From an uncultured Gammaproteobacteria bacterium (GTDB taxonomy: Bacteria > Pseudomonadota > Gammaproteobacteria > Steroidobacterales > Foliamicaceae), in contig OX639965.1 of assembly GCA_951828235.1 (NCBI GenBank), forward strand, positions 1,199,191-1,263,190: DNA of 64,000 nt. Direction: 5' to 3'. The notes below the pieces were generated by a model that was not told where the DNA came from, ran no database searches, and was given only the letters and a program-made list of their open reading frames with translations. The position numbers and the translations under genes were made by a program. The first letter of the stretch is position 1. The number at the start of each line of letters is the position of its first letter. Shown here piece after piece: positions 23,824-47,312 of the stretch.

Positions 23824-23944
23824 CCTGGCAGTGCCAAGTGCTACACAAGGAGACCATTTGCCCGAGTCAACAGAGAAAACGGAATCAATTCACGAGTTGC
23901 CCTACAGAGGCGGGTGTCCATGGATATGTGGAATAAACGGAAAG

Positions 23945-24817
23945 CTATCGCTGGGTTGGCAATGTCAGGTGATCCAAATCGAGATGATCGCTCTCCACAT
24001 AATCTTGTGCCGTAATGTCTTGAAGCCGACATACGATTTGAGAATTAACCAGAAATCGCCCCGATTGAAGAAATCGGCCAATCCATTGTTCCACCAGGGC
24101 AGACCAGTCGGCTGGAATGTCTAGCGGATCATTTTCCTTAATGAACCACCAATCTAACTCCACGGTTGTGTTGTCCCATGAAGGCGCCGCGCGAACTCTA
24201 ACTTCACGAAGGACACGCAGATGCGCCCCTTCGGCGGTATTTTTCGAGGTCGCCGCTACGATATGGCGCTGGAAGTCCTTGGCGGCTTGCACGAAGTCAT
24301 CCGGAAAAGCAAACCGGCTGCGTTTTCGGCTGAGTGCAGTCGCGAAATCACGAGCCTCTTGGTCTGTTCTACAGCCACGATGCCGGGTCCAAGAAGCAAC
24401 TACAGCCTTTTGGACTGTCATCGTCCTATCAAGGTCAGCAACTAGGCCCTCCGGCGCTGTCGCAGGCACGTAAGCAAAGCCTGGTCTCTTCAGGCGGCGC
24501 ACTTCCTCAACCACATGCGCCTCTAGTCTCACCAAGGGTGCAACCTCAACAAAAGGGCGTGTTTGACAGTCACGAATTACGTCGCAAGTTTGAGTAAGCA
24601 CTGCGGCGCCGCGGATTTCATCAGAGACCGGCACGACCTCTGACATCTCGTCCTCGGTTTTCGGAGAAAGTGCTGGTTTGTCATCAGGTTCTTGCCTTGC
24701 CGAGATATGAGCTCTATCGGCGAGATATATGAATTCCAGCCCTTCGTCTAAGGTTACGTCTCCCTGTCGCCATTGGCGTAATACTCTATTGATCGCTCCT
24801 TCGGTTCTGCTAGCCAT
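23945..24817 (-). CDS. Uncharacterised protein, third gene of the tRNA-Met-linked cassette
   Basis: 290 residues from the ATG at 24817; a start at 24847 would overlap the HTH gene by 23 bases. I do not recognise a named family. The N-terminal part (INRVLRQWRQGDVTL) is followed by acidic linker sequence. A conserved-looking core then reads AAVLTQTCDVIRD...RPFVEVAPLV, with later blocks SRKRSRFAFPDDFVQAAKDF and LRVLREVRVRAAPSWD. No signal peptide or membrane helix is visible. The C-terminus is acidic (YVESDHLDLDHL). AT-richer composition than flanking genes and the position after TIGR04255 and HTH genes suggest a horizontally acquired operon. Confidence 0.7.
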   Translation of the reverse strand: MASRTEGAINRVLRQWRQGDVTLDEGLEFIYLADRAHISARQEPDDKPALSPKTEDEMSEVVPVSDEIRGAAVLTQTCDVIRDCQTRPFVEVAPLVRLEAHVVEEVRRLKRPGFAYVPATAPEGLVADLDRTMTVQKAVVASWTRHRGCRTDQEARDFATALSRKRSRFAFPDDFVQAAKDFQRHIVAATSKNTAEGAHLRVLREVRVRAAPSWDNTTVELDWWFIKENDPLDIPADWSALVEQWIGRFLQSGRFLVNSQIVCRLQDITAQDYVESDHLDLDHLTLPTQR

Positions 24818-24824
24818 TGAAGAG

Positions 24825-25499
24825 TCATGTCGCTTTCTTTTTTGCAATCCTCACGACATTCGCGATGCGAGTCCTGGAGGAGGGAGTATGGGGTGGATCT
24901 TGTATTGCCTCAAGAAAATACGCGGGGGATGGAGGGCGTCGAGCGGCTTGCGCGCTGGGTGCCAGGGGAAGCGGCCGCTGCATTGCTCGCGATGGGGAAA
25001 GTAGCTCGGCTGCTTCCTTGAAACGGTTGGCTCGTAGTATCTCAAACAAAGACTGCCCCGAAGAATTCTGCGTAAGCAATTGGCTTCGATTTTGTTCCTG
25101 GCTGCCGGTGTCAATACGCCGAATTATTTTGAGCGCCTGCCGAATGCTCTGTTCATGAATAGCGGTAGTCGGCTGACCGTTTGCCCAATTGTGGACGCTA
25201 CGGCGCGAAACTCGAAAGAGATTGCCAATTTCTTCCCACTTAAGTCCGCCTAGTCTCCGTATTTCAAGAATTGCCTCGGCTGTAGTTTCGTTGGGGACCA
25301 ACTGCAATTGTGGCCGTGGGTAGGAACTTGTTGCGTCGGTCGCGCGAGGAATGTAATAGCTCGCTACGGTTCCCGATTCGGGGATTCCTCCGAGGGTTCG
25401 ATTCAAGGCAATAGAGTGGTAGCGAGGTTCGTCTTGAATGAGGGTTGCCAGGATGCCCTTTTCTTCTTTTGTGTAGCTACGTGCGCACGTTGCGATCAT
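24825..25499 (-). CDS. Helix-turn-helix protein, second gene of the cassette
   Basis: 224 residues. Around residues 75-112 a helix-turn-helix can be read (TAEAILEIRRLGGLKWEEIG followed by NLFRVSRRSVHNWANG), typical of DNA-binding antitoxins or regulators. A second block, SLFEILRANRFKEAAELL near residues 150-167, resembles the C-terminal partner-binding region of some Xre/MbcA-type antitoxins. The tail is proline-rich and basic. The ATG at 25499 overlaps the TIGR04255 stop (ATGA), showing tight coupling. It could repress its own operon through the direct repeats at 26343-26362. Role as antitoxin or regulator is inference. Confidence 0.72.
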   Translation of the reverse strand: MIATCARSYTKEEKGILATLIQDEPRYHSIALNRTLGGIPESGTVASYYIPRATDATSSYPRPQLQLVPNETTAEAILEIRRLGGLKWEEIGNLFRVSRRSVHNWANGQPTTAIHEQSIRQALKIIRRIDTGSQEQNRSQLLTQNSSGQSLFEILRANRFKEAAELLSPSRAMQRPLPLAPSAQAARRPPSPAYFLEAIQDPPHTPSSRTRIANVVRIAKKKAT

Positions 25500-26314
25500 A
25501 ATTCCGCCCCGTAAAAGGCCAAGAAATTGTCGGTAGTCATTTCCCGAAACACACTGTAAATTCGCTTGGCGAAGCTCCCAACGGTGGAAATTACCAGTTC
25601 CGTATCGTAAGGCATCGAATTGGGTGTAAACATGTCCAGATCAAGAAACCAACTTTCACTATCTAGTGGCTCCAATAAGTTAGGATCGTGAGTTGAATTT
25701 GGCGGCAACTTGCCCCATGTGCCTTGGATCAGTCCCTCTTCGGCAAGGAATTGGGCGTTTGTAATCAAATGCACCGCCGCTTGGCCAAGCGTTTGCGGGT
25801 CGGCATGATTGGAATTCAAGATGCCTAGCACCTCGGGATGAATGAGATCTCGCAGTTTTTCTGTTGCCTCGCCCTTCATCCGATCGATATACCGCAATCC
25901 AACTCTCTGAGCACTCGCCGGATTAAAGGCCTCCGCGAGACTGGAAACAATGTGATTAAGTCTTGTCAAGAAGTCGTTACGGCTCTCATAGTTTGTAGTC
26001 TCAAGGGCAACGAAATCCACGCCCAACGAAACTAGCCAAGAAGGTGATTCTCGGCTACCGGAAAACCTCCAAATCAGCGAGCGTTCGCTAATCTCCGGCG
26101 TTTCCCGGCTTAAGTCGACATTCCGTCCTTGCTCTTTGCTTAGTTCCGGATATGTGTCGCGAATCAACTCCTGAAAATCTGCAACTCGATCCGGATTGCG
26201 AATCGCAAGAATCTGAGGAAATCGAATCTGGGCGATAACGCGTTCGAGCGGTGCCCTTGGTAAGGGAACCTCAGCAGGGGACTCGCCGGTCAGTGGTTGA
26301 GGTTGAGCCCACAT
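25496..26314 (-). CDS. TIGR04255 family protein, first gene of the cassette
   Basis: 272 residues matching the sporadically distributed TIGR04255 family: an N-terminal LPRAPLERVIAQIRFPQIL, an internal RVGLRYIDRM, and a C-terminal LDLDMFTPN...DTELVISTV...FREMTTDNFLAFYG. The biochemical function of the family is unknown; its members are usually found in accessory regions. I choose the ATG at 26314 because GGGAAAG lies just upstream, rather than the longer frame to 26407, which would include the putative operator repeats. The operon reads toward the MDR gene and begins about 600 bases from tRNA-Met. Confidence 0.8.
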   Translation of the reverse strand: MWAQPQPLTGESPAEVPLPRAPLERVIAQIRFPQILAIRNPDRVADFQELIRDTYPELSKEQGRNVDLSRETPEISERSLIWRFSGSRESPSWLVSLGVDFVALETTNYESRNDFLTRLNHIVSSLAEAFNPASAQRVGLRYIDRMKGEATEKLRDLIHPEVLGILNSNHADPQTLGQAAVHLITNAQFLAEEGLIQGTWGKLPPNSTHDPNLLEPLDSESWFLDLDMFTPNSMPYDTELVISTVGSFAKRIYSVFREMTTDNFLAFYGAEL

Positions 26315-26342
26315 GTTTGTCTTTCCCGTCACAATATGGGAT

Positions 26343-26362
26343 GTGAAGTATAGCGTGAAGTA
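26343..26362. promoter_or_regulatory. Direct repeat GTGAAGTA x2, candidate operator of the TIGR04255-HTH operon
   Basis: GTGAAGTA occurs twice (26343-26350 and 26355-26362) with starts 12 bases apart, so nearly one helical turn. The pair lies 29-48 bases before the TIGR04255 ATG in the promoter region. The second gene of the operon encodes a helix-turn-helix protein that could bind here. Confidence 0.4.
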
Positions 26363-26920
26363 GATGCAACATGGGGCCACGACTTGTGCCCGGAACCCAT
26401 CGACCATGGGGCCATATCTCTGTTACGACTACTTGCAATGGTTTTTAATAGACAAAGGAAAGCCAAGAGTATTGGAACGTTACAAGTCTGATCGAGTTGA
26501 TTAGGTGTGGCAGCAGCTGCTGTTCTTGTGTTGGGCGATGGTCTGCCGGTATTGATGGTTGCGCATGGTCTTCCAGCGGCAGCAATTCCGAGTAAGTGAC
26601 CGAGTTTGCGTTGTTCGGACGCTTGGTTTGCGCCCCCCACGCTGGACGCTGTGATCGGCAACCTCCCACTCCCCGGCTACGATTTGTTCCATTTCCTCGA
26701 TGGCCCGCGAGAATTTCCTTGTCAGAGCGCCGCGACTGTAGTGAGCGTTTTCCTCAATAAAGCCGGAGTGAATTTGGGCTAGTAGGCCAGCGGTGGACTC
26801 ATCTGGATGCTTAGGTTCCAAATTTGGCACGCGCTTCTTAATGCGCTATGTGGTGTAACCAAAGTAATCTGGAATGCACGAATTGTTGATCGCACCTCAG
26901 TCAGTTAAAAGTTCGGAAAG
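26363..26920. other. Gene-poor stretch between the cassette and tRNA-Met
   Basis: This AT-richer stretch contains no gene I can support firmly. One weak minus-strand reading frame (26501-26830) is listed separately. No integrase, no direct repeat of the tRNA 3' end and no insertion-sequence ends were found by eye. Part of it may be decayed mobile DNA. Confidence 0.5.
26501..26830 (-). CDS. Doubtful hypothetical protein
   Basis: A 109-codon minus-strand frame with a GTG start. The first 60 residues (HPDESTAGLLAQIHSG, HYSRGALTRKFSRAIEEMEQ) look like a plausible amphipathic-helix protein. The rest is rich in arginine, threonine and cysteine and looks non-coding, as if a frameshift had occurred near 26640. 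No ribosome-binding site is obvious. It may be the remnant of a small gene brought in with the cassette. Confidence 0.25.
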   Translation of the reverse strand: MPNLEPKHPDESTAGLLAQIHSGFIEENAHYSRGALTRKFSRAIEEMEQIVAGEWEVADHSVQRGGRKPSVRTTQTRSLTRNCCRWKTMRNHQYRQTIAQHKNSSCCHT

Positions 26921-26997
26921 TGGTGGTGATGGGTGGGCTTGAACCACCGACCTGCGGGTTATGAGTCCGCCGCTCTAACCAGCTGAGCTACATCACC
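26921..26997 (-). tRNA. tRNA-Met (anticodon CAT, elongator type)
   Basis: The reverse complement folds as a full cloverleaf. The acceptor stem is GGTGATG/CATCACC, the D-arm AGCTCAGCTGGTTAGAGC, the anticodon loop CTCATAA and the T-arm GGTGG TTCAAGC CCACC, followed by A and an encoded CCA. The G1:C72 pair rules out a bacterial initiator. A CAT anticodon could also be tRNA-Ile2, but the overall sequence resembles elongator tRNA-Met. Its 3' end faces the accessory cassette; tRNA-Thr lies 3 bases upstream. Confidence 0.93.
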
Positions 26998-27076: not shown

Positions 27077-27855
27077 CCGGCCCGTAATTCTACCGCGAGA
27101 GCGGCCAGACCACGCAGCACCAGGTCCGGGGCGACTTGAGCTTCCGGCAGCTCGCCGGTGGCGACCAGGTCGTCGGCGCCTCCGCCGGTCAGCAACAGGA
27201 CCGGGGAACCCCCTCCCTCGCCTGCCAGCGTTTGCATGCCCGTGCGGATCATTCCCAACTGCGCCGCCAGCGTGCCCATTTCCATCGCCTCGGCGCTTTC
27301 GGTGGCGGGCGCGAGATTTCGCGGCTTGTGCGAATGATCCTTCAGCCTCGAGGCCAGTTCGGCGGTTCCCTTCGCCATGGCGGCCAGACTCATCTCCCGG
27401 CCCGGCGCGATGTAGCCGCCGAGATGGCGTCCATCGGCCAGCAGCAGGTCCATGGTCACCGTGCTCCCGGCGTCGACGATGCAATAGTCCCTGGGGCCCA
27501 GCGCGTGCGCGCCGACCAGCGCCGCCCAGCGGTCCGCGCCCAGATTCAGGGGATTGGCGTAGGCGGCGGTCACGCCGCAGGCACAAGCGCGCGCTCGCAC
27601 GAACACGAGTTCTACGGCCAGTCGTTCCAACACCAGTCCCGCAAGCTTGCGACCGATTTCCACGCCCGCGACGTTGCAGGCCAATGCACCGGCCGATGCC
27701 TCCCCGCGGTCCAGGAACGGCAGAGCGGGCAGCCCGTCCGAGGTGCGCGCGGCGCCGGCGCCTTGAAGTTCCTTCCCCGCACCCGAAAGCCAGGCCCACT
27801 TGATCCGCGTGTTCCCCACGTCGATGAGCAGGATGCGCGAAGCAGCAGCGTTCAC
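27067..27855 (-). CDS. coaX: Type III pantothenate kinase
   Basis: 262 residues; phosphorylates pantothenate, the first step of coenzyme A synthesis. The ASKHA-fold motifs are present: LLIDVGNTRIKWAWL at the N-terminus, NPLNLGADRWAALVGA, VDAGSTVTMDLL and the GGYIAPG loop. The start overlaps the birA stop by four bases, the familiar birA-coaX pair. The last codons GPE-stop lie inside the tRNA-Thr gene, so the coaX stop codon is supplied by the tRNA sequence. Together with coaBC elsewhere in the window, much of the CoA pathway is represented. Confidence 0.95.
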   Translation of the reverse strand: MNAAASRILLIDVGNTRIKWAWLSGAGKELQGAGAARTSDGLPALPFLDRGEASAGALACNVAGVEIGRKLAGLVLERLAVELVFVRARACACGVTAAYANPLNLGADRWAALVGAHALGPRDYCIVDAGSTVTMDLLLADGRHLGGYIAPGREMSLAAMAKGTAELASRLKDHSHKPRNLAPATESAEAMEMGTLAAQLGMIRTGMQTLAGEGGGSPVLLLTGGGADDLVATGELPEAQVAPDLVLRGLAALAVELRAGPE

Positions 27856-28673
27856 AAGCGAATCTCCGCCGACAGTATGCGCCGTTCGCCGCCCGATTCC
27901 TTAAGCAGCAGGGCGCCCGACGAATCGACTCCCGCCGCCACGCCCACGTGCCTGTCGGCGCCGCAGAGGGCCTCTATGCGCCGTCCGGCTAGCCAATCGC
28001 GCTGCCGCCACGCGTCCGCCCAGCCGGTGAAACCGTATGCGGGATGCCTTTCCAGCACTGCGGCGATCGCCGTGATCATGGCGCCCGCCAGCGCGTTGTG
28101 CTCAGCGGAATTGCGCTGGTCAAGCTCAGCAAGGCCGGCCGGGTTCATGCCGCCCTCCCTGGCGACTCGATTGCGTTGTTCGTCGCTGACCCGGATATTG
28201 ACGCCCAGGCCCGCGACCACGCGAGTGTCCGCAGCGCCCTGCGAGGAACGTGCGGGAGCGAAGGCGTCTCCCCTTCGTGGAGGGCGGGACGCCCTCCCTC
28301 CCGGGATGCTGGACGTGGAGGTCTCCACCAGGATTCCGCCCAGTTTGCGGTCTTGAGCTACCAGATCGTTGGGCCATTTCAATTCCACCCGGTCCGCCAC
28401 GAACGCCTCCAGGCCCTCGGCAATCGCGACGCCCAGCGCCAGCGAAAGCGAGCCGTCCGGAGGCCTGGGCGCGGTCCTGCTCACGCTGAGCAGCAGTCCG
28501 GCGCCGGCCGGCGAATGCCAGCTCTTGCCGTTTCTCCCGCGCCCGGCGCTCTGATGGCCGGCCAGGCAGACCGCCAGGCTGTCCCCTGGCGCCATGGCGG
28601 GAACCTGCAGCAATCGCTCGTTGGTGGACGGCAACGAATCATGGATTTCGAGCAGCTTTATTCGCCGGAGCAA
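27852..28673 (-). CDS. birA: Biotin-[acetyl-CoA-carboxylase] ligase, with in-frame palindromic repeat insertion
   Basis: 273 residues. The catalytic core is recognisable: STNERLL, the biotinyl-AMP loop AGHQSAGRGRNGKSWHSPAG, KWPNDLV and KLGGILVE. The N-terminal winged-helix DNA-binding domain of E. coli BirA is absent, so it is a ligase without repressor function. Between GILVE and VVAGLGVNIRV, normally about ten residues apart, lie some 34 residues beginning TSTSSIPGGRASRPPRRGDA. These are encoded by a copy of the dispersed palindromic repeat (28254-28303), inserted without breaking the frame. The insertion is in a loop, so the enzyme is probably still active. It is followed by coaX with a 4-base overlap. 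Confidence 0.92.
   Translation of the reverse strand: MLRRIKLLEIHDSLPSTNERLLQVPAMAPGDSLAVCLAGHQSAGRGRNGKSWHSPAGAGLLLSVSRTAPRPPDGSLSLALGVAIAEGLEAFVADRVELKWPNDLVAQDRKLGGILVETSTSSIPGGRASRPPRRGDAFAPARSSQGAADTRVVAGLGVNIRVSDEQRNRVAREGGMNPAGLAELDQRNSAEHNALAGAMITAIAAVLERHPAYGFTGWADAWRQRDWLAGRRIEALCGADRHVGVAAGVDSSGALLLKESGGERRILSAEIRL
28254..28303. repeat. Dispersed GC palindromic repeat, copy B, inside birA
   Basis: GGGAGCGAAGGCGTCTCC and AGGGCGGGACGCCCTCCCTC form the two arms of a hairpin, with the same consensus as the intergenic copies. It is read through in frame in the birA coding sequence and encodes an arginine-, glycine- and proline-rich loop. Confidence 0.7.
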
Positions 28674-38473: not shown

Positions 38474-39664
38474 TCACGCTAAAGCTGCTTGGGGTCTTGC
38501 AGCAGACGATATGGACGCGAGAGCTTCAAGAACGAGCGTCGCTGCTTGCTCAATTTCGTGTTCCGTCGAAAAGCGGCCAAAGCTGAATCGAATTGAGGCC
38601 TCGCTTTCTTCAGTTGATAGTCCTAGAGCTCTGAGAACATGCGAAGGCTCGGGAGTTCCGGATGTGCAGGCTGCTCCAGTGGATGCAGCCAGGCGGGGCT
38701 GCAACACTCCAAGAATATCTTGTGCGTTGTGCCCGACGAAACGAACGTTGGCATTTCCGGGATGACGATGTTCATTGGGCGGCCCATTCAGAGCAACTTC
38801 GATCTCACCAGTCCGCAAGTGCCCTACAAAAGTATCTCTTAGCCTCGCTATCTCCTGCCGTTCAATGCTTGCCTGTTCGCTTGCGCAGAGAGAAGCGGCT
38901 GCACCCATTCCCGCGCAAAGCGGCAAAGGCAGGGTGCCTGACCGAATGCCTCCCTGCTGACCTCCACCGTGAATGAGTGGTTCGATCCTGTCATGCAGAT
39001 CGCGCCTTAGATATAGAGCCCCAATTCCCTGCGGTCCATACATTTTGTGTCCAGAAAGACTTATTAGATCAGCGTGATAGGCGAGATCGTGCAGATCCAT
39101 TGCGCACGGGGCCTGTGCAGCATCTGTGTGCAAGAGGATTCCATATGGAGCGAGCAGTGAGGCAATGGCCGGTATGTCTTGGATTACGCCGACTTCGTTA
39201 TTGACTGCCATGATCGAAACGAGCAACACGGTGTTGTCGAGCATCTCCTTGAGGGTGCCTAAGTCAATTCGGCCTTCTGAATCGACCGGAACGTGCTCAA
39301 CAGTGAACTTCTCACGATCCTCTAATGCTCTCGCAGCAGCCAATACGCACTTGTGCTCTATAGCGCTTACCAAAATGCGCCGTCGTTTGCTTGAGGTATG
39401 CCGCACAAGACCGAAGAGCGCTAAGTTATTGGCTTCCGTGGCGCCGGACGTAAAGATAATTTCGTCGGTATCCGCACCGATTAAGGCAGCCACTAAAGAT
39501 GCACCCTTACGCGTCGCTTTTTCGGCCTGCCAACCGACTACGTGGTCGGTAGAGTGCGGATTGCCGAACGCCTCGTGCCAATGTGGCTCCATGGCTGCTA
39601 AGACACGTGGGTCAAGCGGCGTGGTGGCCTGATAGTCGGCGTACAGACACGTTTCCTTTCGCAT
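38474..39664 (-). CDS. sspA: Cysteine desulfurase, SspA/DndA-like
   Basis: 396 residues, a PLP-dependent enzyme that takes sulfur from cysteine as a persulfide. The N-terminal YADYQATTPLDPRVL, SGATEANNLALFG, HTDAAQA and the PLP-lysine segment SLSGHKMYGPQG are all present. The catalytic cysteine is in STGAACTSGTPEPSHVL. It is divergent from DUF4007, ATPase and ATP-pyrophosphatase genes, the order known for SspA with SspBCD, so it is probably the sulfur donor for DNA phosphorothioation and not the housekeeping IscS. The ATG at 39664 has GGTGGA upstream; the TTG at 39670 is an alternative. Confidence 0.9.
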   Translation of the reverse strand: MRKETCLYADYQATTPLDPRVLAAMEPHWHEAFGNPHSTDHVVGWQAEKATRKGASLVAALIGADTDEIIFTSGATEANNLALFGLVRHTSSKRRRILVSAIEHKCVLAAARALEDREKFTVEHVPVDSEGRIDLGTLKEMLDNTVLLVSIMAVNNEVGVIQDIPAIASLLAPYGILLHTDAAQAPCAMDLHDLAYHADLISLSGHKMYGPQGIGALYLRRDLHDRIEPLIHGGGQQGGIRSGTLPLPLCAGMGAAASLCASEQASIERQEIARLRDTFVGHLRTGEIEVALNGPPNEHRHPGNANVRFVGHNAQDILGVLQPRLAASTGAACTSGTPEPSHVLRALGLSTEESEASIRFSFGRFSTEHEIEQAATLVLEALASISSAARPQAALA

Positions 39665-39675
39665 TGCCAATCCAC

Positions 39676-39692
39676 CTGGACGTTTCGTCCAG
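39676..39692. promoter_or_regulatory. Perfect inverted repeat in the sspA-sspB divergent promoter region
   Basis: CTGGACG TTT CGTCCAG: 7-bp arms around 3 bases. It lies 12-28 bases before the sspA start and within the 91-base divergent region. This is a typical place for an operator controlling both directions, although no regulator gene is encoded in the island. Confidence 0.45.
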
Positions 39693-39755
39693 TATCAAAA
39701 GCACCTTAACGTAACATGGTAGTATTGTCACTTGCTCGTTCACACGGAAGAGCCG

Positions 39756-40694
39756 ATGCGGAGAGGCCCGCTCTATCGAGACGATTACCGGCCGCGCCTA
39801 TCGGGACACGAGACTTTTCCACTGCGCTACGGATGGCTCAAGAAGGCGTTTGACGCAGTCGAGAATTCGGCCGATCCGGCAGGCGCCAAGTCGATTTTTC
39901 GTGCAGACGATGCGATCGCCCGATTTGGGGTGGGCAAGAACATGGTGGCCTCCATTCGCCATTGGGCCACCGTTACCGGCGTGATCGACGATGGGTCTAT
40001 CTTGGGCGGACCGTCAGTAACTCAGTTTGGAGCCACGCTGTTTGGCCAAGGCGGGCTGGATCCTTTTTTCGAGCACCCAGCGACTGCTTGGCTGGTCCAC
40101 TGGCGACTCGCGGGTGTCCCCACTAAGACCACCTGGTTCTGGGCATTCAGCTACTATTCTCGCGACTTTTTTGATCGGGAGCAGCTCGTTTCGGGGCTTA
40201 CGGCGCTTGCACGTGATCGCGGTTGGCGCCGTGCTGCTCCCACGACGCTAAAGGCAGACGTCGCCTGTTTCGTGCGAACATACGTTTCGATGTCTCCTTC
40301 GGGCAAGGCAAGTCATGAGGACACACTTGAGTCGCCGCTTACTGAGTTGGGACTGGTGAGGCTTGTTGGAAAGCGCGACGGATTTCGGTTTGTGCGCGGA
40401 CGTAAACCTTCATTAGGCGATGGCGTGTTTTCCTATGCGGTTACAGATTTCTGGTCTCGATTCTCGGCCGGTAAGACCCTTTCGTTCGAGTTGCTGGCCC
40501 ACGAGCCGGGATCGCCAGGCCGCGTTTTCCTGCTAAGCGAAGAGGAATTGGCCGACCGTCTATCGCGACTCGAAGAATCGAGCAACGGACTCTTCCGGTG
40601 GTCGGAAACCGCAGGGCTGAAGCAGCTTATGCGTTCGGGAGAACTAAGCGCCGAAAATGCACTGGACTTTGTCAAGGAAGATTACGCCGCGTGA
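39756..40694 (+). CDS. sspB: DUF4007 family protein, SspB-like
   Basis: 312 residues of the DUF4007 family, starting RPRLSGHETFPLRYGWLKKA and containing FRADDAIARFGVGKNMVASI and the FWAFSY and FVRTYV segments. In characterised SspABCD systems the DUF4007 protein SspB is the DNA-nicking component needed to insert phosphorothioate sulfur in one strand. The ATG at 39756 with GGAAGAG upstream gives the usual N-terminus; a longer start from a TTG at 39732 is unlikely. The ATPase gene begins 22 bases after its stop. Confidence 0.88.
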   Translation: MRRGPLYRDDYRPRLSGHETFPLRYGWLKKAFDAVENSADPAGAKSIFRADDAIARFGVGKNMVASIRHWATVTGVIDDGSILGGPSVTQFGATLFGQGGLDPFFEHPATAWLVHWRLAGVPTKTTWFWAFSYYSRDFFDREQLVSGLTALARDRGWRRAAPTTLKADVACFVRTYVSMSPSGKASHEDTLESPLTELGLVRLVGKRDGFRFVRGRKPSLGDGVFSYAVTDFWSRFSAGKTLSFELLAHEPGSPGRVFLLSEEELADRLSRLEESSNGLFRWSETAGLKQLMRSGELSAENALDFVKEDYAA

Positions 40695-40716
40695 TGATCA
40701 GGGAGGATCAGAGCTA

Positions 40717-43700
40717 GTGTCGCTTGCCGATAGCGTTCGTGTTGTGCGGCGTTTTCAGCGCTCTGTGCGGATCGATACGGACCTGACCGACGACTCCGCC
40801 CTTGCGGGCTTCGTTTGCCCGCGCTCATCCGCTAATGCGCTGGAGACGATGGCTGGCCACATGGCGGGCGACGGTCAGGCCGCGTTCACCTGGACGGGAC
40901 CTTACGGCACTGGCAAGTCCAGTCTGTTGATTGCGCTCGGCGCCGCGCTAAGTGGCGATGAGCAACGGCGACGGCAGGCTGAATCGATTCTCGGGCAGGA
41001 AACTGCGTCTCGCTTATGGGAAGCGATGCCGCCCCGCAAGAGGGGCTGGCGTGTCTTGCCTGTTGTAGGTCGCCGGGAGAGCCCCATAGCTGTCCTCGGA
41101 GAGGCCATCGAGAACGTCCGCTTGGCCGGCAAAGAAAAGCCGCAAGTGTGGGATGAGTCCGGCATTTTGCAAACCCTTCAAGAGCAGGCAAGGCGTTACC
41201 CACGAGTGGGCGGTGGCTTGATCGTGTTCATTGATGAGATGGGCAAGCTGCTTGAGGCTGCCGCTGAACAAGGCGAGGACATCTATCTTTTTCAGCAGAT
41301 GGCGGAGGTAGCATCCCGAAGCGGTGGCCGCCTAGTAGTTATCGGCATCCTCCACCAAGCATTCGAGGAATACGCCAACCGGTTGTCCCGCGAGATGCGC
41401 GACGAATGGGCCAAGATTCAGGGCCGTTTTGTAGATCTGGTCATCAATGCGGCGGGCGATGAACAGATTGATCTGCTTTCCCGCGCCATTGAAAGTGATC
41501 GTGGCGACGTACGCCCCGGTAATGTCGCCCGCAGGGTTTCGGGATCGATGCAACGAGCTACTTCTTCGCAGCTACCGCGCACCCTGGAGAATTGCTGGCC
41601 GCTCCACCCCATCGTTGCGTGTTTGCTAGGCCCCGTTTCGCGTCGGCGTTTTGGGCAAAACCAGCGCAGCGTCTTCAGCTTTCTGAATTCTGCGGAGCCA
41701 TACGGGTTTCAGGACTTTCTCCGTTCCGCAGGCGACGATGAGCTGTACGGTGTCGAGCAATTTTGGGATTATCTGCGGACTAATCTGGAACCGGCCATTC
41801 TGGCTTCGCCCGATGGCCACCGTTGGGCACTGGCCGTGAATGTGCTGGATCGCTGCGAAGCGATGGATGGAGAAGATCTGCACTCTCGCCTGCTTAAGGT
41901 GATTGCAGCGATTGACATGCTCAAGGATCGTTCCGGTTTGCCGGCCAGCCGCGAGTTGCTTGCATTGGCGCTTGCGGATTTCGGAACTGAGAAGATCGAC
42001 GCGGCGTTGGATGATCTGCAGAGATGGCGCCTTATCGTTTTCAGAAAGTTTAAGAACGCATATGCTGTATTTGAAGGCAGCGATTTTGACATTGACCTAG
42101 CCACGGAGCGCGCGTTGGAGGAGTCGCGTGAGGTAGATTTTTCTTTCTTCGAAACGCTTTCCAGGTTACAGCCGATCGTGGCCAAGAGACATTACTACGA
42201 GACTGGCGCGCTTCGCTGGTTTGACGTGGTCGTGACTTCTGCTGCCAAAGTTGAGACGGTTGCTGGCAAATACGCACCCAAGCACGGTGCCATCGGCACG
42301 TTCTTGCTGGCAATTCCAACAGAGGGTGAATCCATGGAAGAGGCGCAAGTAGCCTGCCGCAACGCTTCGCGGAGCGTTAACGGCTGGGAAATTGTCATTG
42401 GCTTATCTCAAAGCTCCTGGAACATTCCTCCACTATTGCGAGAACTGTTGGCGCTTCAGAAAGTGCGCGAGCACACACCGGAGTTGCAGGGCGATCGGGT
42501 AGCCCGGCTTGAGGTACGCGCACGTATTGCCGAGCTGCAAGGACGACTGGAGGCCGAAGTCTCCGAGGCGTTCGACGGAGCAGATTGGTATTACAGGGAT
42601 CAACCGCAAAAGCGCCTGCATCACGCCGAATTGAACGGCCTTGCATCGAGTCTCGCAGGGCGAAGGTTCGAAAGTGCGCCTCGGCTTAGAAACGAACTTG
42701 TGGTGCGAGACAAGCCGTCAAGCAGCGCGGTCGCCGCGCGTAATGCGCTGCTCCGACGGATGGCCCTTAACGAAAGTGAGCCGCGTCTTGGCATCAGCGG
42801 CTTCCCGGCGGAGGGGGGTCTGTACGCATCGCTCTTGGAGGCCACTGGATTACACGCCAGCACGAAGGAAGGATGGCAATTTGTATCCCCGCGCGACGTA
42901 TCCGAAGACCACTACAATCTGGCCCCTACTTGGCGAGCAGCAACCGACTTCCTCGAAGAGAATGCCCATCGCGCCGTGTTGCTTTCGGAAATATATGAAA
43001 TCTGGAGCGCACCCCCCTTCGGAATCAAGAAGGGTTTGCTGCCGGTGCTTGGCGTCGCGTTTGTGTTGTCGCAAAGCCGCAGTCTCGCCTTTTATCGTGA
43101 CGGTATCTTCCAGGCGCGAATTTCCGATCTGGACATTGACTTCCTTGTACGAGACCCACGGGACATTCAGCTTCGCTGGATGGACCTGTCGCAGGAAGCT
43201 CGGCGACTCCTGTCCGCAATGGCCGGCATCGTGCGTGACTTGGACGCACACAACACGCTGCCCCATCTTCAGCCTATCGATGTCGCAAAGGGCCTGGTAG
43301 CGATCTATGACCAACTGCCGCCATGGGTTGGCCGCACGCAACGCCTGTCCGCTACGGCAAAGCGGTTGCGGCAACTGTTCAAGCAGGCGAATGATCCGAA
43401 CAAACTGGTTTTTGACGATATTCCCCAAGTCATGCGGTCCATGGACATCACCGGCGGCCAGGACACGTCAGAAAGCCTTTCGCAGAACGTGCGCGGCGCG
43501 ATCGAGGAACTACAACAAGCCTATCCGGTCATGCTCAATCGGCTAAAGGACTTGCTTCTGGTTGAACTGGAGGTCCCGAATGCTTCGCTCGCTACTCTCG
43601 CGGAATTGCGCGCCCGTGCCGATAACGTGCGAGAACTGGGGGGTGATCACAGATTGGAAGCGTTTATCGTGCGCATTGCGGAATTCCAAGGGAGCGACGC

Positions 43701-44109
43701 TGACATTGAAGGCTTGGCAAGCATGGCCGTAAGCAAGCCGGCGCAGCTTTGGGTGGATACGGACATTGATCGCGCGGAGGTCGAACTTGCCGAGTTGGCG
43801 CAGAGGTTCAAGCGAGCCGAGGCGTTTGCGCGAGTCAAGGGCCGCCGCGACAAGCGCCATGCCATGGCCGTAATTGTCGGAATGGACGGTCGCCCCGCCG
43901 CGCTGCACGATGAATTTCACATTTCCGATCAGGACCACAAGGAAGTAGACTCGCTGATCGAAAAGGTCGATTCGACTCTGCGGGAGAGTGGTGAAGAGAG
44001 GCGTAACATTATTCTTGCCGCACTAGCTGAATTGAGTGCACGGTACCTCGATCCTCGCAAGCGGTCGGACTCAAAGCCTTCAGATGACGAGAGGAAGGCG
44101 GCAAGCTAA
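40717..44109 (+). CDS. sspC: Large P-loop ATPase, SspC-like
   Basis: 1130 residues. Walker A GPYGTGKSS lies at about residues 61-69 and Walker B LIVFIDEMGK at about 168-177. The long C-terminal part has mixed helical sequence and no other recognised domain. It matches the large ATPase SspC of the SspABCD phosphorothioation system in position, orientation and size class. The GTG at 40717 is preferred: GGGAGG lies upstream and it follows the sspB stop. An ATG at 40657 would overlap sspB. It ends 4 bases before sspD, giving a tight operon. Composition is less GC-rich than flanking backbone genes. Confidence 0.85.
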   Translation: MSLADSVRVVRRFQRSVRIDTDLTDDSALAGFVCPRSSANALETMAGHMAGDGQAAFTWTGPYGTGKSSLLIALGAALSGDEQRRRQAESILGQETASRLWEAMPPRKRGWRVLPVVGRRESPIAVLGEAIENVRLAGKEKPQVWDESGILQTLQEQARRYPRVGGGLIVFIDEMGKLLEAAAEQGEDIYLFQQMAEVASRSGGRLVVIGILHQAFEEYANRLSREMRDEWAKIQGRFVDLVINAAGDEQIDLLSRAIESDRGDVRPGNVARRVSGSMQRATSSQLPRTLENCWPLHPIVACLLGPVSRRRFGQNQRSVFSFLNSAEPYGFQDFLRSAGDDELYGVEQFWDYLRTNLEPAILASPDGHRWALAVNVLDRCEAMDGEDLHSRLLKVIAAIDMLKDRSGLPASRELLALALADFGTEKIDAALDDLQRWRLIVFRKFKNAYAVFEGSDFDIDLATERALEESREVDFSFFETLSRLQPIVAKRHYYETGALRWFDVVVTSAAKVETVAGKYAPKHGAIGTFLLAIPTEGESMEEAQVACRNASRSVNGWEIVIGLSQSSWNIPPLLRELLALQKVREHTPELQGDRVARLEVRARIAELQGRLEAEVSEAFDGADWYYRDQPQKRLHHAELNGLASSLAGRRFESAPRLRNELVVRDKPSSSAVAARNALLRRMALNESEPRLGISGFPAEGGLYASLLEATGLHASTKEGWQFVSPRDVSEDHYNLAPTWRAATDFLEENAHRAVLLSEIYEIWSAPPFGIKKGLLPVLGVAFVLSQSRSLAFYRDGIFQARISDLDIDFLVRDPRDIQLRWMDLSQEARRLLSAMAGIVRDLDAHNTLPHLQPIDVAKGLVAIYDQLPPWVGRTQRLSATAKRLRQLFKQANDPNKLVFDDIPQVMRSMDITGGQDTSESLSQNVRGAIEELQQAYPVMLNRLKDLLLVELEVPNASLATLAELRARADNVRELGGDHRLEAFIVRIAEFQGSDADIEGLASMAVSKPAQLWVDTDIDRAEVELAELAQRFKRAEAFARVKGRRDKRHAMAVIVGMDGRPAALHDEFHISDQDHKEVDSLIEKVDSTLRESGEERRNIILAALAELSARYLDPRKRSDSKPSDDERKAAS

Positions 44110-44113
44110 AGCA

Positions 44114-44950
44114 ATGTCTCAAGCCGAACGACATGTGCTGGGTTTGTCTGGCGGCCGCGATAGCGCGGCGCTTGCCGTATTCATGCGCCAGAACCATCCC
44201 GAACTGGATATTGAGTACTTTTTCACCGATACCGGCAAGGAACTGCCCGAAGTCTATGAATACCTCGTCAAGCTTGAGGGATTCCTCGGCAAGCCCATAC
44301 TACGCCTGAACCCTGATCGCGACTTCGACTTCTGGCTGAAGCAATACAACGACTTCCTTCCCTCGCCACAAACCCGCTGGTGCACCCGGCAGTTGAAGCT
44401 GCGACCGTTCGAGCAATGGGTGCACCCCATGCTGGACGAAGGAATTCGCGTTTACAGCTACGTAGCCATCCGTGCCGATGAGCAATACCGCGAAGGTTAT
44501 GCTTCAAAGAAGGAAAACTTGCTGGTGCGGTTGCCGCTGAAGGAGGCCGGGATTGACAAGGCTGGCGTCCTGGAGATTCTGGAAGGCACAGGCCTCGGCT
44601 TGCCCTCCTACTACGAATGGCGCACCCGCAGCGGCTGCACCTTCTGCTTCTTCCAGCAGAAAATCGAATGGGTTCGACTACGTGAACGTCACCCAAATTA
44701 TTTTAGGGAAGCGCAGGAATATGAGAAGACAGCGCTCGAACAAGGATCGCCTTTTACTTGGTCTCAAGGAGAGTCGCTACAGGAATTAGGGCAACCGGAA
44801 CGCGTTGACCAGATTAGGCAGGATCATGAAATTCGCCTCACTCGTATGCGGTCCAAAGTGCAACACAATCCCCTTAGGCCGGATGTCGATCCTTTGGATA
44901 TGGATGATCTATACGGAAATACAAAAATTTGTCTTTCGTGCCACAAATGA
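44114..44950 (+). CDS. sspD: ATP-pyrophosphatase / PAPS-reductase-like protein, SspD/DndC-like
   Basis: 278 residues. The PP-loop SGGRDS is at residues 12-17 after MSQAERHVLGL. Further on it has the cysteine-containing RWCTRQLK and RSGCTFCFFQQK, and a C-terminal KICLSCHK. Together these fit the DndC/SspD group that activates the DNA backbone with ATP and probably carries an iron-sulfur cluster. It is the last gene of the sspBCD row; the effector follows after 76 bases. Length and motifs are complete, so it appears functional. A PAPS reductase of sulfate assimilation is less likely given its neighbours. Confidence 0.88.
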   Translation: MSQAERHVLGLSGGRDSAALAVFMRQNHPELDIEYFFTDTGKELPEVYEYLVKLEGFLGKPILRLNPDRDFDFWLKQYNDFLPSPQTRWCTRQLKLRPFEQWVHPMLDEGIRVYSYVAIRADEQYREGYASKKENLLVRLPLKEAGIDKAGVLEILEGTGLGLPSYYEWRTRSGCTFCFFQQKIEWVRLRERHPNYFREAQEYEKTALEQGSPFTWSQGESLQELGQPERVDQIRQDHEIRLTRMRSKVQHNPLRPDVDPLDMDDLYGNTKICLSCHK

Positions 44951-45026
44951 CACGGTTTTGCTCTCTTCGAGTGGCCTCACTAGGCTTAAACTGATGCCTG
45001 ATACTTAACAATGAGGTATTAGATCT

Positions 45027-47312
45027 ATGCTCGGAGTGGGGGACATTTTTGTCGCTAAGGTCGAGAGTCTTTGGGACACCCTGAATTGCCACGGTGGTAC
45101 TGTGGGATTCCGAATTCCGGAGTATCAGCGCACATACGATTGGAGCGAAGAAAGGATTAGTCGCCTTCTTGAGGATTGCGCGAATGGTTTCGGCCAGTTA
45201 CGGAAGACTAAGGAGTCATACACGTTCCTTGGCACATTAATCCTCGTTAGAGAAAAGAGTGAAACAACATTCGACGGTGATTCGGTGGCCGTGGTTGACG
45301 GCCAGCAACGACTAACGACTCTTCTCCTGACGTGTTGTGCGTTAGTGGAAAAAATTAGCGCAAATCTCGGATTGGCCGAGAATCTACATGCTGACGCAAA
45401 AGATGTGATCATTAGGGAGGCGGAGCGTCACATTGGGCAACTGTGCCGGTGTATCGTTGGCGAGTTGCGGAGTTTCCAGCAAACCGGCAGGTATCCACGT
45501 ATCATCCGTCATCAGGACAAGAGGGCTGCAGACAAAACCAAAGCTCATTACAAGTCGACAATAGCCAACTTCCTGACGGATTTCACGGATCACTACAGCA
45601 GTGCAAGTCTAGTAAGGCCGGAGTTTAGTTTCCAGCACCGGCGCGATGACGACGCAACAAGCAAGAGGCTGGTCGAAAACTATGATTTCATCAAGCGGCA
45701 GATAGCCCACATTGTGGGGCTGACAGCGCAGAAGACCAATAGCGACGAAGCACCGGATTATGAGGTGGTGCCCTGCCAAGATTTCAAACTCAAAAGCTTC
45801 ACGAATTTACTGCCGAAGATTCGTCGAGGCAGGAACGAGAGAGTTGTTGCAAATATTTCCCGAGAAGGCCCTTCGAACCAACTCACCCGCCTGATTCTCT
45901 TTGCCTCCTACATAAGTCAGTGTGTTGTTCTGACCCGCGTGGAAGCTAGAAATCAAGACTATGCCTTTGATATTTTTGATGCCCTAAATACCACGGGCGA
46001 GCCTTTGACAGCGATAGAGACATTCAAGCCGCTAGTAATCCAAAGCGAGCAAACGGGCGGAAGGGGTTATACCGGGTGGACATCCGAGCCCGAGTTTTCC
46101 GAAATAGAGGGGGTGTTTGGGAAAATTCTAAAGCCTGCAGATAGGCAGAGTGAAGCTAGAGAAACGGTCATTTCCTTTGCCTTGTACGCAAGCGGAGAGA
46201 AAGTTTCGAAGGATCTTCGTGGGCAAAGGCGTTACCTAAGGCGGTCGTACGATAGGCGTTGCGAAACAGCACAGTCCAAGCAACGTTTCGTCAAGTCTCT
46301 TTCTGAGATGACTCAGTTTCGAGATGAATGTTGGAGCAGAGAGGGCATACGGCAAACACCTAGTCTGGAACCTGATACGAGGTTGTGTCTTCAGGTCATT
46401 CGGGACATGAATTCCAGCCTGGTGTTGCCCGCCATTGCCCGCTACTGGGCGATAGAGCGTTCGCAGGGTAACGAAAAGGACGTAACCAATGCGGTTCGCG
46501 CACTAACCGCTTTCTTGATTCTGAGGCGTTCTGTCACAGGATCGACCGGGGGCATAGATGGCGTCTTTCGCGCAATTATGAAGGAGCGGAGCAGCTACGG
46601 CGACCCATTGTGTTGTGGATTGCAGTCTGAGAATCAACTACTGAGCGTCAGTGAATTAAGGGCTTATTTGCGTGGGCTCTTGGCCGTAAGGCAAATCGGC
46701 GTCACAACCAAGGAAGAATGGATTCAAAGCGCTAAAGACATACCTATAGGCAGGCACACGTCACCGTTGGCCAAGTTTCTCATCCTGGCTGCTTCGCAAT
46801 ATGCGAAACCTGATCCGAATTATCCCGGTTTGCTGACGCGGGAGGACTTTCGTGAAAGCGAAGAGCAGGAGTATTTGACGTATGCAAAATGGATTTCGGC
46901 TGAGTACAAGACAATTGAGCATGTTGCGCCATCTACCAATCCCGGACAGGGTTGGGATCCGGACATTTACGGTCGGCAGCGATTTACTCGGGATACGGTT
47001 GGCAATCTCGCGCTCTTGCCACAGAAGGAAAACGCGAGTCTAGGAAACAGCCCTTGGAAGCGCAAGAGGTTGTTCTATTTGGCCCTCACAGCACCAGATA
47101 GTGCGGAGCAAGAACACTGGTTGCATGAGGCAGATGCGGCTGGTCTTGAGTTTCCAAAGACCACTAGGACCCTCCTCAAGAAAGGGCGGCGCCTTCATCT
47201 ATTGGATCCCTTGCGCGAGGTAGAGGAGTGGGATGAGAAACTGATTCGTGCGCGCACGGAAAACATACTAAGTCTCGCTTGGGATACGATCAAACCGTGG
47301 CTGTGGGATTGA
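45027..47312 (+). CDS. sspE: SspE-like restriction effector with DUF262 and DUF1524 domains
   Basis: 761 residues. The N-terminal DUF262 domain shows FRIPEYQRTYDWSEERI and FLGTLILV, and the VVDGQQRLTTLLL motif near residues 88-100. The C-terminal DUF1524 HNH-type nuclease shows TIEHVAPSTNPGQGW near residue 632 and DTVGNLALLPQKENASLGNS near 655. This two-domain build is that of SspE, which senses phosphorothioate-marked self DNA and nicks unmarked phage DNA; similar proteins serve other systems (GmrSD), but context decides. It is AT-richer than the backbone. Beyond its stop lies truncated toxin DNA. Confidence 0.88.
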   Translation: MLGVGDIFVAKVESLWDTLNCHGGTVGFRIPEYQRTYDWSEERISRLLEDCANGFGQLRKTKESYTFLGTLILVREKSETTFDGDSVAVVDGQQRLTTLLLTCCALVEKISANLGLAENLHADAKDVIIREAERHIGQLCRCIVGELRSFQQTGRYPRIIRHQDKRAADKTKAHYKSTIANFLTDFTDHYSSASLVRPEFSFQHRRDDDATSKRLVENYDFIKRQIAHIVGLTAQKTNSDEAPDYEVVPCQDFKLKSFTNLLPKIRRGRNERVVANISREGPSNQLTRLILFASYISQCVVLTRVEARNQDYAFDIFDALNTTGEPLTAIETFKPLVIQSEQTGGRGYTGWTSEPEFSEIEGVFGKILKPADRQSEARETVISFALYASGEKVSKDLRGQRRYLRRSYDRRCETAQSKQRFVKSLSEMTQFRDECWSREGIRQTPSLEPDTRLCLQVIRDMNSSLVLPAIARYWAIERSQGNEKDVTNAVRALTAFLILRRSVTGSTGGIDGVFRAIMKERSSYGDPLCCGLQSENQLLSVSELRAYLRGLLAVRQIGVTTKEEWIQSAKDIPIGRHTSPLAKFLILAASQYAKPDPNYPGLLTREDFRESEEQEYLTYAKWISAEYKTIEHVAPSTNPGQGWDPDIYGRQRFTRDTVGNLALLPQKENASLGNSPWKRKRLFYLALTAPDSAEQEHWLHEADAAGLEFPKTTRTLLKKGRRLHLLDPLREVEEWDEKLIRARTENILSLAWDTIKPWLWD

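Follow-up and report, generated by a model that had tools for sequence, protein, structure and literature searches.

A mobile three-gene operon headed by a TIGR04255 protein and encoding a predicted MazF/CcdB-fold protein: a candidate tripartite toxin-antitoxin-like module

Here we describe a three-gene operon found in the window (the whole stretch of DNA analysed, 64,000 nucleotides), in which genes A, B and C encode a TIGR04255 family protein, a helix-turn-helix (HTH) protein and a protein whose N-terminal domain has a predicted MazF/CcdB fold. Our results support the idea that this trio is one conserved, co-inherited and mobile unit. We give an even chance to the proposal that it is an autoregulated tripartite toxin-antitoxin-like module, acting mainly against phages or other invading DNA. 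If confirmed, the trio would represent a new tripartite toxin-antitoxin or defence family, present in many phyla and on plasmids, and its effector would have the MazF fold without the MazF active site.

The three genes are encoded on the minus strand. Gene A (25496..26314), the first of the operon, encodes a 272-aa protein recognised by the NCBIfam model of the TIGR04255 family. Gene B (24825..25499) encodes the HTH protein, of 224 aa, which we propose to be both autoregulator and antitoxin, and gene C (23945..24817), with an ATG start, encodes the proposed effector, of 290 aa. The stop codon of A overlaps the start codon of B (ATGA) and 7 bases separate B from C; thus, the reading frames, coordinates and gene coupling given in a preliminary description of this cassette are confirmed. 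Since 24 of 29 homologous loci preserve the ATGA overlap, the coupling of A and B is not due to chance. The trio is also AT-richer than its surroundings, as had been noticed before, with a GC content of 0.50-0.56 versus 0.64-0.69 in the flanking DNA.

The preliminary description had proposed a search for the same trio elsewhere, and had taken independent occurrence of the genes as an argument against a functional cassette. Relatives of C were drawn from genome contigs, plasmids, one class-level genome and viral contigs, and 33 of their loci had enough upstream DNA to be testable. The A-B-C order was present in 31 of these 33, which speaks against an independent occurrence of C. The two exceptions were L006, which has no A and whose B merges upstream into unrelated sequence, and L027, whose truncated C is accompanied by neither A nor B. 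Gene A does occur independently: among 398 genomes of the phylum, TIGR04255 was found in 30 and C in just 1, because TIGR04255 also heads operons with different partners. In support of co-inheritance, the pairwise distances between loci measured on A, on B and on C are strongly correlated (Mantel r 0.90-0.92). The trio extends over about seven phyla, plus plasmids and prophage-like contigs; the record titles name Proteobacteria, Chloroflexota, Actinomycetota, Cyanobacteria, Planctomycetes, Acidobacteria and Myxococcales, with the caution that several records are MAGs, whose labels can be wrong. It is rare (at the level of the class, 2 of 369 genomes have C), and no nucleotide match to it was found in E. 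coli genomes.

Besides the branch to which the window copy belongs, there is a diverged second branch, one kind of TIGR04255 operon, composed of TIGR04255, an HTH protein and a protein of about 280 aa. HMM-HMM comparison relates the two branches through all three proteins (E 4e-31 for A, 8e-15 for B and 8e-11 for C). The second branch was found on plasmids of Pseudomonas, Vibrio, Klebsiella, Acinetobacter, Robbsia, Meiothermus and Gloeocapsa, and on an Acinetobacter contig recorded as a phage. Loci L070, L073, L081 and L085 represent a third kind, in which the third protein is C-like (HMM-HMM E 3e-5) and no HTH is recognised in the second gene.

The HTH segment of B (GLKWEEIGNLFRVSRRSVHNWANGQP; 25170..25289, minus strand) covers residues about 71-110, gives weak matches to HTH_23 and sigma-70 region 4, and has seven invariant residues (R81, G85, W88, V97, R100, W105 and G108). 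Alignment of the sequence upstream of A brought up a direct repeat, TTCACA-N6-TTCACA; of the 27 loci of the window branch, 23 match it at 11-12 of 12 positions. The window copy of this operator-like tandem repeat (TTCACGCTATACTTCACA; 26342..26359, minus strand) lies 28 bp ahead of the start codon of A and is the sole exact match in the 3.1-Mb genome. The second branch carries a repeat of other sequence (TGTGTAA/GTGTAAA-type) with the same 12-bp period. Moreover, exact 7-mer tandem repeats of period 12 occur in 18/27 and 8/14 HTH-bearing loci of the two branches; as controls, the other periods from 8 to 18 gave 0-1 HTH-bearing loci each, and among the 19 TIGR04255 loci with no HTH in the second gene, just 1 had a period-12 repeat. 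Since the 12-bp repeat is nearly confined to HTH-bearing operons, B very probably regulates its own operon, as judged from the sequences. A palindromic operator was also considered and rejected, there being no shared inverted repeat upstream of A.

A hydrophobic stretch at the N-terminus is found in about half of the diverged B proteins (10/21 and 7/15). The B protein of the window lacks it, and therefore this segment is not essential to B and was discarded as its defining feature. Note that in the B homologs of L018, L079, L126 and L130 the hydrophobic stretch is followed by G/T/S-rich motifs before the HTH.

Protein C has no match in Pfam, NCBIfam or PADLOC at E<=1, and no housekeeping relative was found among the families searched, a kind of homology that would have spoken against an accessory role according to the preliminary description. 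In the AlphaFold2 model (mean pLDDT 82.9), residues about 8-170 (24308..24796, minus strand) form a MazF/Kid/CcdB-like domain. The best Foldseek match was a chain of a MazF complex (6kyt_H; probability 0.99, E 0.012) and the best VIA-align match was 5hk0_A (Z 9.8, rmsd 2.9 A, 106 aligned of 109). All 50 VIA-align entries listed for C were of the MazF, Kid/PemK or CcdB type (Z 7.7-9.8). Models with no true counterpart usually attain Z 7-8, so that the margin in Z is modest, yet one superfamily fills the whole list and the whole domain is covered, so the model argues for a MazF/CcdB fold in the N-terminal domain. The C-terminal domain (about 171-290) gave no fold match with the C model, and the full length of C exceeds twice that of the solved toxins with this fold. 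The fold is the only link between C and MazF, because their sequence similarity is not significant: C has no match to PF02452 (MazF/PemK) at E<=1, and HMM-HMM comparisons using 7 or 30 MazF sequences and the N-terminal domains of one to three branches were rejected as evidence of homology (P about 0.1-0.6 for C of the window branch). A shared MazF fold by itself demonstrates no function.

The catalytic residues of MazF are Arg25 and Thr48 (PMC7354611). In the corresponding columns of C, which were mapped by motif alignment and not by coordinates, R is present in 7/21 sequences and V, I or L in 21/21, compared to R in 29/30 and T in 25/30 of the MazF sequences. Thus, the MazF Arg/Thr pair does not appear to be conserved in C. 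What C conserves is a QGD motif near the start and an [ST]-x-x-C site. The TQTCDV core pointed out in the preliminary description proved to be strongly conserved, with Q76, T77, C78 and R82 present in 21/21 sequences and D79 in 20/21 (the Cys78 codon is at 24584..24586, minus strand). The cysteine is found in all sequences of three diverged branches (21/21, 15/15 and 4/4; 40/40), and RFAFPDDFV is invariant in the window branch.

Gene A is a clear TIGR04255 member (E 3.1e-42, 145 bits, with a curated cut-off of 30). Its AlphaFold2 model (pLDDT 87.6) resembles duplicated alpha/beta folds. The Foldseek match was weak and near noise (TBP-like, E 5e-4), as was the top of the VIA-align list, guanido kinases (Z 8.4, rmsd 4.4, 190 residues), considering that a top Z of 7-8 is usual even when no true match exists. 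Structural modelling and Foldseek comparison, which had been proposed for these proteins, gave a predicted fold for C and near-noise matches for A. SecB was not among the fold matches listed for A, which does not exclude SecB. Residues Y109, R141-Y142, D225-x-D227, F256 and T261 are conserved in 81-98% of the 59 TIGR04255 proteins compared, regardless of their partners, and this pattern suggests a ligand or phosphate site. TIGR04255 had initially been put forward as the possible effector; in view of its predicted MazF fold, C is the likelier candidate, and not necessarily TIGR04255. The family is named in no paper of the open-access PMC literature searched, outside of which lie subscription papers and preprints, and the accessions of the trio proteins gave no match in open-access PMC.

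The trio is contained in a 3.1-kb insert (23825..26915) located between an oxidoreductase gene and a tRNA-Met(CAT) gene (26921..26997, minus strand), which is its right-hand border. The insert is missing from four genomes of the same genus (G002, G004, G005 and G008), in which about a dozen bases separate the oxidoreductase gene from tRNA-Met. In a further genome of the genus, G003, the same gap is occupied by genes for an NgoMIV-type restriction enzyme, a C5 methylase, a Vsr endonuclease and an HTH protein (locus L056; G003:C25:60700-64200). Since the site is empty in four genomes and carries a restriction-modification system in G003, it is an exchange site for defence-type cargo. Gene C was found in none of the eight other genomes of the genus, and the additional reading frame of the insert (26501-26830) had no match in Pfam or PADLOC.

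The preliminary description had placed the trio at the tRNA-Met 3' end and proposed island entry there. The trio does lie downstream of the tRNA, yet the start of gene A is 607 bp away from it, and the proposed entry was not supported. No integrase was recognised among the reading frames of the insert, the far border does not repeat the tRNA 3' end (it has no word of at least 8 bases in common with the tRNA region), and a tRNA was present in 0/33 homologous loci. A tRNA-directed integrative island was therefore rejected; the tRNA neighbourhood is peculiar to the window genome and is not an entry mechanism.

Outside the insert, a palindromic element of about 52 bp (28253-28306) lies inside a biotin-ligase-like reading frame (27852-28673) and has 44 matches in the genome itself, with numerous others in sister genomes. 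Most sister copies of the biotin-ligase-like gene do not carry it, and it resembles repeats that insert into coding genes.

The preliminary description had proposed to compute enrichment near defence genes, and the trio is found close to such genes. The 114 proteins nearest to homologous trios gave 262 PADLOC model matches at 1e-10, and the same number of proteins from 20 arbitrary stretches gave 4; overlapping models were counted and the control was not taxon-matched, so these numbers give the direction and not the size of the effect. The neighbours include type I restriction-modification (L012), a Gabija helicase (L008), PglW (L017), E1-E2/JAB (L007) and Upx (L025), and in several records the plasmid and prophage-like copies adjoin restriction genes and integrases. 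A, B and C themselves match no system model of PADLOC-DB 2.0.0 at E<=1. Note that the same window also carries, 12 kb from the trio and in AT-rich DNA, a complete phosphorothioate defence system (SspABCD-SspE; 38474-47312), with SspA/DndA on the minus strand and SspB, SspC, SspD and SspE on the plus strand.

These observations agree with the toxin-antitoxin or defence operon suggested from the layout in the preliminary description, since the coupled trio is conserved, has an operator-like repeat and has defence genes as neighbours. By sequence, the operon has the layout of a type II toxin-antitoxin system, namely a coupled pair, a DNA-binding partner and an operator-like repeat upstream. In the mechanism that we propose, B would bind the 12-bp tandem repeats before A and act as an operon-specific repressor, and its flexible C-terminal tail would keep C inactive. 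C would be the effector blocking growth or infection, through a MazF/CcdB-fold domain without the MazF catalytic pair, a QGD plus [ST]-x-x-C site and a C-terminal domain. A would sense or modulate, with a conserved sheet lined by Arg and Asp residues that may bind a ligand or a product of the invader, freeing C. We counted against this mechanism the non-significant sequence similarity between C and MazF, the lack of the MazF Arg/Thr pair in C, the length of C, the existence of TIGR04255 operons with unrelated partners and the limits of the PADLOC comparison.

The same toxin-antitoxin logic for B and C could serve pure addiction, with the trio stabilising plasmids, prophages and islands, and with the nearby defence genes as fellow cargo. 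Type II toxin-antitoxin systems are often addictive, and conjugative and large plasmids, as well as the ends of prophage-like contigs, are common locations of the trio. However, the window trio stands alone at a chromosomal site where a sister genome has a restriction system, and the chromosomal copies adjoin defence genes; for these reasons we consider addiction unlikely, and phage defence the likelier selected function. The roles could also be reversed: A, with an Arg/Asp site like that of a phosphotransferase, would then be the enzyme or toxin, B would repress it, and C would use its MazF fold to sense or to neutralise. The conservation of the A residues despite differing partners, the guanido kinases at the top of its fold list and the lack of the MazF catalytic pair in C would fit such an arrangement, but a Z of 8.4 is scarcely above what is obtained without a true match and the antitoxin-then-toxin order points to B and C as the pair, which makes it, in our opinion, quite improbable. 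Finally, mobile DNA could carry the trio as an accessory operon with a regulatory, non-toxic role, in which B represses and A and C have targets other than growth or infection. That its families have no known function and that C lacks the MazF catalytic residues would accommodate this, but the combination of a MazF/CcdB fold, a toxin-antitoxin-like layout and a defence-gene neighbourhood speaks against it, and we regard it as very improbable. The tripartite toxin-antitoxin-like module thus remains the reading that we prefer.

Other TIGR04255 operons have unrelated partner pairs, some of them with a WDGY-motif second protein. In L065, L076, L080, L088-L091 and L093, TIGR04255 is accompanied by a WDGY-like second protein and an unrelated third protein; these operons are possibly further modules of the same kind. 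In L071 (1483-2858), the genes directly after TIGR04255 encode a small protein and then a true MazF (PF02452, E 1e-18). This MazF was set aside as a third gene and left out of the count because it may belong to an independent antitoxin-MazF pair. A tentative and rather doubtful extension of these observations is that modular immune switches of three genes would form a large undescribed superfamily, with TIGR04255 as the part that stays the same and exchangeable partner-effector pairs behind it, HTH plus a MazF-fold cysteine effector in one branch, and that the MazF-fold branch would use a cysteine chemistry new to the fold. For a family that is widespread and without known function, TIGR04255 gains here a repeating genetic context, the predicted effector fold of a partner, an operator-like site and a conserved cysteine.

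Compared to known systems, the trio resembles MazEF, Kid-Kis and CcdAB in that a toxin-fold gene comes right after its DNA-binding partner, in that the unit is mobile and has an autoregulatory-looking operator, and in the modelled MazF/CcdB fold of the C N-terminal domain. It differs from them in having three genes and a C protein of 290 aa with an extra C-terminal domain and a long first loop. In C, Arg25/Thr48 of MazF are not conserved and a Cys motif is present; C does not match PF02452, and B is an HTH protein dissimilar to MazE or CcdA. CmdTAC illustrates that three-gene toxin-antitoxin systems can sense phage via the third protein (PMC11618068). By analogy with TAC and CmdTAC, the third protein of the trio could sense infection and control the antitoxin, and many diverged B proteins, although not that of the window, share with these systems a hydrophobic N-terminal stretch. 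In contrast to them, the third component is here TIGR04255, encoded by the first gene and not recognised as a SecB-like chaperone, and the proposed effector has a predicted MazF fold and is not an ADP-ribosyltransferase like that of CmdTAC. Within the TIGR04255 family, of which gene A is an unambiguous member, the tandem operator is found only in the branches with an HTH partner. Thus, by its layout the trio is a new variant of the toxin-antitoxin type, and by its sequence families and the missing MazF active site it lies outside MazEF.
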